Source: Zunongwangia pacifica
GTDB taxonomy: Bacteria; Bacteroidota; Bacteroidia; Flavobacteriales; Flavobacteriaceae
Direction: 5' to 3'
DNA length: 64,000 nt
NCBI RefSeq assembly: GCF_023499215.1
Contig: NZ_JAKHSK010000008.1
Coordinates: forward strand, 62,001-126,000
Positions 17,277-23,249 of this stretch are shown here, piece by piece (positions within the stretch are counted from its first letter, which is position 1; each line of letters starts with the position of its first letter). The position numbers and the translations under genes were made by a program. The notes beneath the pieces were generated by a model. The model was not told the DNA's origin, searched no databases, and was given only the letters and a program-made list of their open reading frames with translations.

Positions 17277-17346
17277 CTAAGAATATGTGAGGTGTAAAGA
17301 ATAAGAGGAAAAGCTTCCCTTGCTTCTTTATCGTTTTTTAATTGAA

Positions 17347-18410: not shown

Positions 18411-18812
18411 TTAATCTACAAAAGCCTTTAGCATATTTTTTACTGTATTTTGTGAAGCAGGATACAAATACTTAAGATACTCCAGATAGCTTATATTCTG
18501 GGTTAAGTTTTTGGTTTGCTTAGAGAGAAAAGCAGCTTCATAACCGGTAAAGGTGGTATTTTTAATTTCTTTATTAAAAATTTTTATGAGGTTGCGATGT
18601 CTGGAGTCTTTAGCGATATTGGCGAAAAGCTCTTGAATAATAGCACTTTCCCCTTCTATTACCTGAAAAAAATTACCTTCTGAACATAGTAAAATTCCGG
18701 TGATGTTGTGATCCATATTCCAATTTTCTGTATAAGAAAGAATGTTATCGATGTCTTTTTCTTCCATATCGGGAGAAGCTGTACTTACGTAGCAGATTGC
18801 CCATCTTTTCAT
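18411..18812 (-). CDS. BLUF-domain blue-light photoreceptor, stand-alone
   Basis: This 133-residue protein is a single BLUF domain with no output domain. The residues needed for the photocycle are all present at the family positions: Tyr8 in ICYVSTA, Asn32 five residues before ITG, and Gln50 in NFFQVIEG. Single-domain BLUF proteins bind FAD, respond to blue light by hydrogen-bond switching, and usually act by binding a partner protein. No partner (EAL domain, PixE-like regulator) is adjacent. Its 5' region is unusual: between it and rpoD lie two 125-base repeats and a candidate promoter, so its mRNA could carry a structured leader of about 270 bases. Confidence 0.93.
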   Translation of the reverse strand: MKRWAICYVSTASPDMEEKDIDNILSYTENWNMDHNITGILLCSEGNFFQVIEGESAIIQELFANIAKDSRHRNLIKIFNKEIKNTTFTGYEAAFLSKQTKNLTQNISYLEYLKYLYPASQNTVKNMLKAFVD

Positions 18813-18887: not shown

Positions 18888-19012
18888 TTATAAATGAAGC
18901 GACCCCGGGTCATCACTCCGGGGTCATTCATCAATCAAAAAACGAACAGTTATTTTCATGGTTAGGGTCATCACTCCCACCACTAAACTGTTGTCATCTT
19001 AAATATGTTTAA
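18888..19012 (-). repeat. Copy 1 of a 125-nt structured direct repeat
   Basis: This is nearly identical to 19198-19322, with two compensating one-base indels. On the plus strand it holds hairpin B, GACCCCGG (18901-18908) with CCGGGGTC (18918-18925), and hairpin A, GGTTAGGG (18960-18967) with CCCACC (18976-18981), the latter enclosed by AACAGTT/AACTGTT (18945-18951 and 18986-18992). Both loops carry TCATCACT. On the minus strand hairpin A is followed by a six-T run, as in a terminator. A non-coding RNA or duplicated rpoD terminator are the two main readings. Confidence 0.85.
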
Positions 19013-19091
19013 ATCTATCTTTAATTTTCAATATTTTAATAGTGATAGTCAAAAGTAATGCCATTATAAAATAGATGATCGCTAAGACTCC

Positions 19092-19123
19092 CAAAATTAG
19101 TCCGCTAATTTAGTAAGTTTCAA
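19092..19123 (-). promoter_or_regulatory. Candidate promoter between the two 125-nt repeats
   Basis: On the minus strand TTG (19121-19123), a 21-base spacer and TAATTTTG (19092-19099) match the Bacteroidota -33/-7 pattern with the same spacing as the nqrA promoter. Transcription would begin near 19085 and run through repeat copy 1 toward the BLUF gene. A second TAnnTTTG box (TACTTTTG) lies further downstream in the same spacer. Confidence 0.55.
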
Positions 19124-19197
19124 TTAGAATCAATAAATTTTAATTTAAGTTTAATAAATGATGCCAAAATAAGGAGTGGAATTAAAAATACATATCC

Positions 19198-19322
19198 TTA
19201 TAAAATGAAGCGACCCCGGGTCATCACTCCGGGGTCATTCATCAATCAAAAAACGAACAGTTATTTTCATGGTTGGGTCATCACTCCCACCACTAAACTG
19301 TTGTCATCTTAAATATGTTTAA
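19198..19322 (-). repeat. Copy 2 of the 125-nt structured direct repeat, overlapping the rpoD stop
   Basis: This copy overlaps the last 4 bases of rpoD, so it forms the immediate 3' untranslated region. Hairpin B is GACCCCGG (19212-19219) with CCGGGGTC (19229-19236); hairpin A is GGTTGGG (19271-19277) with CCCACC (19286-19291). The loop octamer TCATCACT is again present in both. The stems are kept while a one-base change in hairpin A relative to copy 1 falls in a bulge, as expected if structure matters. Confidence 0.85.
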
Positions 19323-20182
19323 CCTAAATAGGTTTTTAAAATCTTACTGCGGGATGTATGTTTTAATCTTCTAATCGCTTTTTCTTTAATTTGTCGTACA
19401 CGTTCACGGGTAAGATCAAAAGTTTCGCCAATTTCTTCTAAAGTCATAGGATGTTGATCTCCTAATCCAAAATATAAGCGAATAACATCAGCCTCACGAG
19501 GTGTAAGTGTTTCCAAAGCACGCTCGATCTCTGTTCTTAGCGATTCATGTAGAAGATCTTTATCTGGATTTGGAGACTCACCAGATCGTAATACATCATA
19601 AAGGTTAGAATCTTCACCTTCTACTAAAGGAGCATCCATCGATACGTGACGGCCAGAGTTTTTCATAGACTCTTTAACGTCATTAATCGTCATATCCAGC
19701 TCTTTTGCAATTTCTTCAGCACTTGGTGGGCGCTCATGAGATTGCTCTAAGAAAGCAAAGGTTTTGTTGATCTTGTTAATAGATCCAATTTTGTTAAGTG
19801 GCAAACGCACAATACGGGATTGCTCTGCCAATGCCTGTAGGATAGATTGTCTAATCCACCAAACAGCGTAAGATATAAATTTAAAACCACGAGTTTCATC
19901 AAAACGTTTCGCAGCTTTAATAAGTCCTAAGTTTCCTTCGTTAATAAGATCGGGAAGGGTTAATCCCTGGTTTTGATATTGTTTCGCCACAGAAACCACA
20001 AAACGTAAGTTCGCTTTTGTTAATTTCTCCAAGGCACGGTTATCACCCGCTTTAATTCGTTGTGCTAATTCTACCTCTTCGTCTGCGGTAATTAAATCTA
20101 CTTTACCAATTTCTTGCAAATACTTATCTAGCGAAGCAGTTTCACGGTTAGTTACCTGCTTCGTAATTTTAAGTTGTCTCAT
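19319..20182 (-). CDS. rpoD: Primary RNA polymerase sigma factor (sigma-70)
   Basis: This 287-residue protein is the short Bacteroidota primary sigma factor: it lacks region 1.1 and the long non-conserved insert of E. coli RpoD. Region 1.2 starts near residue 18 ([15 protein letters not shown]). Region 2 contains [18 protein letters not shown] and [13 protein letters not shown] (core binding and -10 recognition). Region 3 follows, and region 4 has [23 protein letters not shown], the helix-turn-helix for the -33 element. This factor would read the TAnnTTTG promoters found throughout this window. A strong ribosome site (AGGAGAAG) lies 5 bases before the ATG, unusual in this phylum. Confidence 0.97.
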
Positions 20183-22919: not shown

Positions 22920-23189
22920 TTATTTTCTTAATCCTAATTCCTTAATAATGGCACGATATCTCATGATATCCTTTTTCATTAAGTAATCAAGAAGTCTTCT
23001 TCTTTTTCCTACAAGACCAACAAGAGATCGCTCTGTGTTAAAGTCTTTACGATTTCTTTTTAAATGCTCAGACAAATGTGAAATTCTGTAAGTGAATAAT
23101 GCGATTTGCCCTTCAGCTGTACCAGAATCGTTTTTACCGTTTCCGTACTTTTCGAAGATTTCTTCCTTCTTTTCTTTAGTTAAATACAT
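22920..23189 (-). CDS. rpsO: Small ribosomal subunit protein uS15
   Basis: This 89-residue protein is ribosomal protein S15, which binds the 16S rRNA central domain early in 30S assembly. The conserved KNDSGTAEGQIALFTYRI and HLSEHLKRNRKDFNTERSL segments and the LVGKRRRLLDYL helix are present at the expected places, and the length is exactly that of the family. It has its own promoter box, a short leader with a hairpin, and a strong terminator before pnp. Confidence 0.98.
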   Translation of the reverse strand: MYLTKEKKEEIFEKYGNGKNDSGTAEGQIALFTYRISHLSEHLKRNRKDFNTERSLVGLVGKRRRLLDYLMKKDIMRYRAIIKELGLRK

Positions 23190-23219
23190 TCCAATATTAT
23201 TTAAATGATTTTTATGTAT

Positions 23220-23249
23220 TGGCAGCTTTTCTGCCAGGCCGCAAATGTA
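23220..23249 (-). promoter_or_regulatory. rpsO promoter box and leader hairpin
   Basis: On the minus strand TACATTTG (23242-23249) is a full match to the -7 box; no good -33 TTG is seen. Transcription should begin near 23236, exactly where a six-pair hairpin (TGGCAG/CTGCCA, 23220-23236, loop of five) starts. The hairpin thus caps the 5' end of the mRNA, 30 bases before the start codon. S15 autoregulates through its own leader in other bacteria; that is only a possibility here. Confidence 0.55.

Follow-up and report, generated by a model that had tools for sequence, protein, structure and literature searches.

A candidate base-pairing small RNA at the 3' end of rpoD mRNA, duplicated in Zunongwangia pacifica and widespread in Flavobacteriaceae

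The window analysed here, a stretch of 64,000 nucleotides from Zunongwangia pacifica, carries the gene for the primary sigma factor, rpoD, and behind it two copies of a 125-nt element. A self-comparison of the window aligned copy A and copy B at 99-100% identity in two blocks, with start spacings of 311 and 310 that correspond to one internal indel and one edge indel, and so bore out the duplication described in a first-pass annotation of this DNA. Copy B (19198-19322) meets rpoD (19319-20182, minus) at the stop codon, as had also been described, and copy A (18888-19012) is a tandem duplicate 311 bases beyond it. Because rpoD runs from 20182 to 19319, the rpoD-sense strand is the minus strand, and this is the meaningful strand of the element. 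The features of the locus are as follows.

19319..20182, minus: rpoD, primary sigma factor of 287 aa, host gene of the element (Pfam Sigma70 regions 1.2-4)
19198..19322, minus: copy B, the rpoD 3'UTR copy (self-comparison, fold)
19256..19302, minus: copy B hairpin 1, arms AACAGTT/AACTGTT, with an added inner hairpin carrying a AGTGATGA loop (fold; arms near-invariant in relatives)
19238..19262, minus: copy B antisense core AACTGTTCGTTTTTTGATTGATGAA, overlapping the 3' arm of hairpin 1 (relatives, target sites)
19204..19241, minus: copy B terminator hairpin, AGTGATGA loop, longer stem, poor U-tract (fold; covariation in relatives)
18888..19012, minus: copy A, tandem duplicate (self-comparison, fold)
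18945..18992, minus: copy A hairpin 1 (fold)
18927..18951, minus: copy A antisense core, same sequence as the copy B core (sequence identity)
18893..18930, minus: copy A terminator hairpin (fold, terminator scan)
18411..18812, minus: BLUF gene (PF04940), downstream neighbour outside the element (Pfam)

The stable hairpins reported earlier are evident when the minus strand is folded as RNA, with z scores of -5.25 for copy A and -5.13 for copy B and none of 200 shuffles equally stable; a DNA fold of the plus strand, made for one copy, gave z -4.75. Four terminator-like structures were found on the rpoD strand, against 0.1 in shuffles. The four loops do carry the same octamer, TCATCACT, at 18910, 18968, 19221 and 19278, and it occurs 6 times in the window against 1.49 expected, a count reached by none of 100 shuffles. 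A 12-mer, GGTCATCACTCC, searched across the window with two mismatches allowed, was found 4 times, which is chance level (25 of 100 shuffles reach 4). Copy A does lie ahead of the BLUF gene, but the good promoter said to precede it did not hold up: a scan with a sigma-70-type consensus, not one of the Bacteroidetes type, returned 3 promoter-like sites against 3.2 in shuffles, and we rejected a self-standing sigma-70-like promoter before copy A as being at chance level in that scan. Against Rfam 15 (4227 families) the element reaches no gathering threshold, and the ten sub-threshold matches in its region are nowhere near a gathering score. Flavo-1 (RF01705), the family that had been suggested for comparison, resembles the element in being a structured RNA of Flavobacteriaceae; its best match, at 13.4 bits against a gathering score of 42, falls in the spacer, outside the element. 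The only Rfam family recognised in the window lies elsewhere, an S15-Flavobacteria ribosomal protein leader (RF03161, 77 bits) at 23187-23249 on the minus strand.

Relatives show how widely the element is distributed. In a DNA search of 60 relatives, many genera carry it behind rpoD among the matches listed, and each of five other genomes of the window's genus has 2-3 copies among the matches listed. The exact 25-mer AACTGTTCGTTTTTTGATTGATGAA occurs in at least 117 stretches in named genomes, and the 80 loci examined include, among the matches listed, Aequorivita, Aquimarina, Winogradskyella, Gillisia, Kordia, Galbibacter, Leeuwenhoekiella, Salegentibacter and other genera. Among the 81 listed matches to the 25-mer, rpoD lies upstream in 78; its stop codon is 20-152 nt before the core in 77 and 469 nt before it in one tandem copy, and was not found in 3, two of which are cut by the end of the locus. 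Since the 25-mer scan required the core, conservation of the core in that set holds by construction. We kept 67 of the 81 matches, removing 14 for identical sequence, a missing 5' arm or a short flank. Alignment A1 comprises 54 of the 67 and the two window copies, and alignment A2 comprises 41 of the 67, without Kordia and the members with a long hairpin 1. Covariance model R1, built from the 41 sequences of A2, which is also the basis of the covariation test below, matches 216 of 299 genomes of Flavobacteriaceae and 175 of 236 genera, figures from which strongly divergent members may be missing because R1 scores the core. Among fetched loci the end of rpoD lies at most 1.5 kb upstream of the core in 195 of 202 distinct contexts. 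An order-level sample of 296 genomes gave 40 matches, all 40 in the window's own family. In following a coding gene immediately and sharing its terminator, the element has the arrangement of a 3'UTR-derived sRNA.

Members that score weakly with R1 and are linked to rpoD keep the core in 17 of 19 cases (one with an inserted GATT unit), and those that keep it differ in hairpin 1, in the terminator and in the loops. In two genomes, G215 (L311) and G224 (L312), the typical rpoD terminator is kept and the core has decayed; neither has a 17-mer target match. Two further arrangements were noted. One locus (L447; G363, genus g146) has four tandem units behind rpoD at 1275-1600, three with a shortened core, GTTCGTTTTTTGATTACTCC, and one with the full core and terminator. 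Another, L316 (G293:C80:208529-208602, minus), is not linked to rpoD and combines a related linker, TTTTTTTGATTGATGAATGA, with a AGTGATGA terminator and a long U-tract; it is possible that it represents a paralogous sRNA.

The stem covariation sought in relatives is present in the terminator, and hairpin 1 hardly varies. In the terminator stem (A2, n=41), 53 cells are changed on both sides, against 12.9 in shuffles, and 98.1% of cells are paired, compared with 88.0% after shuffling and 30-50% after sliding. Of the five measures of covariation, two fail to stand out, namely pairs changed on both sides (5 of 8, against 4.2 shuffled, with 172 of 500 shuffles reaching this) and pair types (15, against 12.7 shuffled, reached in 27 of 500). 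Five of the 6 pairs of hairpin 1 are invariant in A2, so its covariation carries little information, and this steadiness is partly by choice because A2 excludes Kordia and the members with a long hairpin 1. Between the two hairpins, the middle eight bases of the core, TTTTGATT, are unpaired with a mean probability of 0.93-0.95 in the ensembles of the 41 sequences; the first core bases lie in the stem of hairpin 1, and the last are paired in part (0.16-0.51, with 0.65-0.87 for the two copies in the window). A conserved and accessible pairing region of this kind is what is looked for in a trans-acting sRNA.

Read as its reverse complement, TCATCAATCAAAAAACGAACAGTTAT, the core is also found at other places in the carrier genomes. 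We collected sites scoring at least 16, of which there are 67 in 60 regions together with five loci in the window's own genome; the 60 regions make up most of the listed matches outside the element and were taken best E-value first, so the tally describes the best matches. Among the best matches listed, 35 of the 67 sites lie upstream of a start and 27 in frames encoding an M56 peptide, of which 16 overlap a PF05569 match and the other 11 are assigned by the peptide only; 1 is in another frame and 4 are without assignment. Orientation is gene-sense in 63 of these 67 best matches, with 1 on the opposite strand. For the 24 upstream sites among the best matches listed that do not belong to PadR genes, the ATG is -2 to +11 nt from the end of the site in 20, and the site reaches into the ATG in 11. 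CATAA precedes the CTG of the core in 128 of 195 rpoD-linked contexts, and the antisense stretch therefore reaches over the AUG. Weak matches to the linker had also been considered as further copies of the element; we rejected this when translation gave M56 frames and start regions.

A Pfam scan of 20 target proteins identified PadR (2), DUF2807/GIN (2), MacB/FtsX (2) and TonB receptors with CarboxypepD (2), along with a beta-lactamase family protein, a BBP2 porin, an ABC ATPase, DUF5367, DUF4440 and an ankyrin/calcineurin-type phosphoesterase; it assigned no family to L089, L118, L123, L128 and L141, and L129 had a single match below threshold. At one locus (L094) the gene order is PadR, a PspC protein (PF04024) and GIN, with sites before the first and third genes. 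PadR leaders (for example L415, L417, L420 and L423) and L115 contain partial TCATCAAT/ATCAATCA units in a row before the full site, as if sites grew by small repeats. The sites in the window's own genome belong to three M56 genes (C56, C14, C3), to the leader of a PadR gene (C34) and to the start of a gene on C56. With whole flanks, their duplex energies range from -48.8 to -57.7 kcal/mol; shuffled duplexes average -28.2 to -32.3 kcal/mol, the best of them reaching -40.8 to -51.5 kcal/mol. Within the window itself no convincing target was found, only two matches with 3 mismatches, at 17329 and 26039. The first of these (17329-17345, minus) is upstream of a ribulose-phosphate 3-epimerase gene (PF00834) and is probably there by chance.

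If these sites are targets of the RNA, one might expect them to occur where the RNA occurs. Allowing at most 1 mismatch, the target 17-mer has 639 matches in 214 carriers, or 416 in 776 Mb once RNA genes are subtracted (one copy per carrier, two in 11 genomes, floor 0), and the reversed 17-mer has 16 in the same 776 Mb. The 85 genomes without the RNA or with a lost core (202 Mb), in which we counted G215 and G224 as without it because the element is present but its core is lost, have 13 sites against 6 for the control. That class rests on R1, and since 12 of its 85 genomes have a 17-mer match, a few may be model misses. Restricted to genomes of at least 2.5 Mb, the comparison is 409 sites in 750.7 Mb of carriers and 7 in 106.6 Mb of genomes without the RNA. 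At least one site beyond the RNA is present in 169 of 214 carriers, with none in 45. Sites that exceed chance, are oriented in gene sense and co-occur with the RNA are what a putative trans-acting sRNA would be expected to show.

PadR orthologs gave a comparison within one gene. A site, defined as a score of at least 13 within 120 nt upstream, is present in 11 of the 15 carriers and in none of the 15 non-carriers (rank p = 2.8e-5, over 30 genomes that are not 30 independent cases because non-carriers mostly cluster on a PadR+PspC tree). The 30 genomes were chosen independently of the site, the carriers in list order without G076, G079, G082 and G088, with the 17-mer counts seen beforehand. Four of the 15 carriers lack the site (scores 4.5-11); in 4 of the 11 that have it the site lies at a distance of 63-89 nt from the start, and in G060, which belongs to these 4, it matches only by half. 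Mapped on the PadR+PspC tree, carrier status has to change 4 times, and for 3 of these changes well-supported branches leave no alternative. The non-carrier G220 pairs with the carrier G073 (100/100) and the non-carrier G255 falls inside a supported carrier group (98/97), and in both we found no core, no PadR site and no 17-mer on either strand, with assembly gaps being possible. Among the members compared, no core change was matched by a target change, because the core hardly varies.

The M56 sites lie within coding regions, at the codons of a conserved peptide, SxIKKRI, which makes it possible to ask whether synonymous codon choice follows the RNA. Of the 22 carrier motifs, 19 fit better than synonymous shuffles (p<0.05), and of the 22 motifs from genomes without the RNA, 6 did (rank p = 4.4e-5; Fisher p = 1.7e-4), in a test tilted toward the antisense reading because 12 of the 30 carrier genomes (G087 to G282) had been picked for many 17-mer matches. 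When these hit-rich picks are left out, 11 of 13 carrier motifs pass (Fisher p = 0.0016); among the hit-rich picks, 8 of 9 do. In each set 8 of 30 loci yielded no motif and stand outside the 22 and 22. Of the non-carrier motifs, 4 belong to other families, and four come from genomes that each have a single 17-mer match (G061, G140, G226, G251). Five motifs were parsed in the genome of the window itself; 2 of them score at least 15 and 3 beat the shuffles. An argument we dropped is that CGA at the M56 arginine is proof of selection by itself, because CGA also appears in 7 of 11 motifs from non-carriers, and we used the synonymous-shuffle test instead.

It is conceivable that the M56 match is a by-product of the SxIKKRI peptide and AT-rich codons, in which case the other targets would still stand. 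The peptide is indeed present in genomes without the RNA, with CGA frequent there, and the 6 non-carrier motifs that beat shuffles would be accounted for as well. But the carrier median score of 17.75 stands well apart from shuffles with each gene's own codon usage, which lie near 10, while the non-carrier median is 10.75, and we consider a by-product unlikely. Non-carrier motifs nonetheless score at least 15 in 5 of 22 cases, one of them at 19.5 (G081), which could reflect recent loss of the RNA, a model miss or constraint on the protein.

That the octamer loop is the functional part, the central argument of the first-pass annotation, is not supported. Among 211 distinct tails, AGTGATGA terminator loops, counted with or without an added C, account for 16, against 167 with CTGATTA, and most genera seen have a hairpin 1 without an octamer-type loop. 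The octamer is thus a local form of the conserved terminator loop, and has been copied into hairpin 1 in the window's clade. Searched genome-wide, as the annotation had proposed, it occurs 245 times against 156 for the reversed pattern, which is unspecific, and we dropped it as a genome-wide signal. A factor binding the AGTGATGA/CTGATTA loop, as in the sponge idea raised at first, might still provide the main function of the element, and the constancy of the terminator loop while its stem covaries, and the repetition of that loop in hairpin 1 in the window's clade, are what one would expect of such a ligand. Kordia and several other members, however, have different loops with the linker intact, and we regard loop binding as the main function as somewhat less probable again than an M56 by-product. 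Conservation and target matching both reside in the linker that joins the hairpins, a part to which the first reading drew no attention. What stands of that reading is its link to the sigma factor and its terminator: the element ends in the rpoD-linked terminator of what appears to be a conserved RNA family, in support of a sigma-linked small RNA, and this terminator-bearing element is duplicated in the window's genus.

The target sites might instead be DNA or 5'UTR elements in their own right, such as operators or translation enhancers, with a copy behind rpoD by relatedness. Many sites do share the same distance to the ATG, and their A-rich stretch resembles the loading region of starts that are not of the Shine-Dalgarno type. 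However, the sequence is antisense at rpoD and sense at the targets, some sites fall within M56 coding regions, where the choice of codons follows them, and sites are scarce where the rpoD element is absent, which together leave this explanation very little room. Least credible, if only by a little, is that the element is a duplicated rpoD terminator and the rest passive sequence, for although the excess of terminator-like structures on the rpoD strand and the position behind rpoD in 195 of 202 contexts agree with it, the linker and not the terminator is least variable (in one set selected for the core, and in weak members not so selected), and a passive linker would neither match hundreds of sites nor sit gene-sense at starts.

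We therefore favour a base-pairing RNA, and the element is very probably the gene of a trans-acting sRNA derived from the 3' end of rpoD mRNA, present here in two copies. As a near-invariant core is antisense to envelope gene starts and to an M56 stretch, it is probably a widespread regulator. The sRNA would be about 75-100 nt long, with hairpin 1 and the intrinsic terminator enclosing a partly unpaired linker; rpoD mRNA would be made with its 3' end bounded by the terminator, and the sRNA may be freed by processing or by an internal start. The linker and the 3' arm of hairpin 1, with the preceding CAT in most members, would form an antisense stretch of up to 27-28 nt that pairs with UCAUCAAUCAAAAAACGAACAGUUAUG. 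Such pairing would mask the A-rich stretch on which ribosomes load and, in many cases, the AUG as well, with repression of translation as the probable outcome. In the PadR-PspC-GIN(DUF2807) operon the RNA could bind before PadR and again before the GIN gene; MacB/FtsX permeases, TonB/CarboxypepD receptors and the M56 coding region are the other proposed targets. In M56 mRNAs pairing would occur mid-gene and may act on stability. Extra copies in the window's genus would raise dosage, a chaperone may take part, and the physiological role might be to tie envelope functions to expression of the sigma factor. According to PMC9723704, the 5'UTRs of Flavobacterium psychrophilum have a median length of 24 bases and its translation starts are unlike those of the Shine-Dalgarno type, which fits a regulator that would mask the last 25 bases before the AUG. 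Taken together, we lean towards an old, family-wide antisense regulator at the rpoD 3' end, whose near-invariant 22-28-nt core would mask the starts of an envelope regulon (PadR-PspC-GIN, MacB/FtsX, outer-membrane receptors) in bacteria that manage without Shine-Dalgarno pairing, and would reach an entire peptidase family through the codons of the M56 motif, whose synonymous choice the RNA would hold.

By comparison with known systems, the element and its proposed mode would be of a known kind, the base-pairing sRNA from a 3'UTR. Such sRNAs likewise lie behind a coding gene, share its terminator and have an unpaired segment antisense to several mRNAs near their starts. CpxQ is another trans-acting sRNA of 3'UTR origin. 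The sRNA from the 3'UTR of glutamine synthetase mRNA is an example of the enterobacterial kind (PMC9731577). Unlike in these, the parent gene here is the primary sigma factor, and the core is 22-28 nt long, near-invariant across the family and matched to the codons of a conserved peptidase family. Judged from sequence, its unusual features would be a host gene that encodes a sigma factor, a core that is both long and near-invariant, and a target made of the codons of a protein motif.

Post-transcriptional regulation in Flavobacteriia is, to our knowledge, scarcely charted, and Bacteroides belongs to an order different from that of the window. The Bacteroides sRNAs described in PMC7366714 and PMC10861873 resemble the element in that they concern regulation by sRNAs within its phylum. 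No earlier description of an rpoD-linked sRNA of Flavobacteriaceae came up in the open-licence PMC literature, judged by titles, the openings of abstracts and counts of terms; the terms 'rpoD' and 'small RNA' both occur in PMC7366714 and PMC5787105. In the same literature the only sRNA of the family found with a deletion phenotype is Rfp18 of F. psychrophilum, whose deletion lowered two target mRNAs (PMC9723704). As described there, Rfp18 is similar in being conserved beyond its species and in having predicted mRNA targets, and different in that these targets are metalloproteases and one adhesin and that it pairs via its third stem-loop; 'rpoD' and 'sigA' are absent from the main text of PMC9723704. 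By targets and pairing region as described, the two differ, and it is unlikely that Rfp18 is the same RNA as the element.

The element is a widespread sRNA candidate with a directly testable predicted regulon, in a group that does not rely on Shine-Dalgarno starts. It would link the mRNA of the main sigma factor to envelope genes, and would be a case in which an antisense RNA apparently preserves synonymous codons of a protein family. Both the regulator and its targets could be annotated in many genomes with a single covariance model and a single motif.
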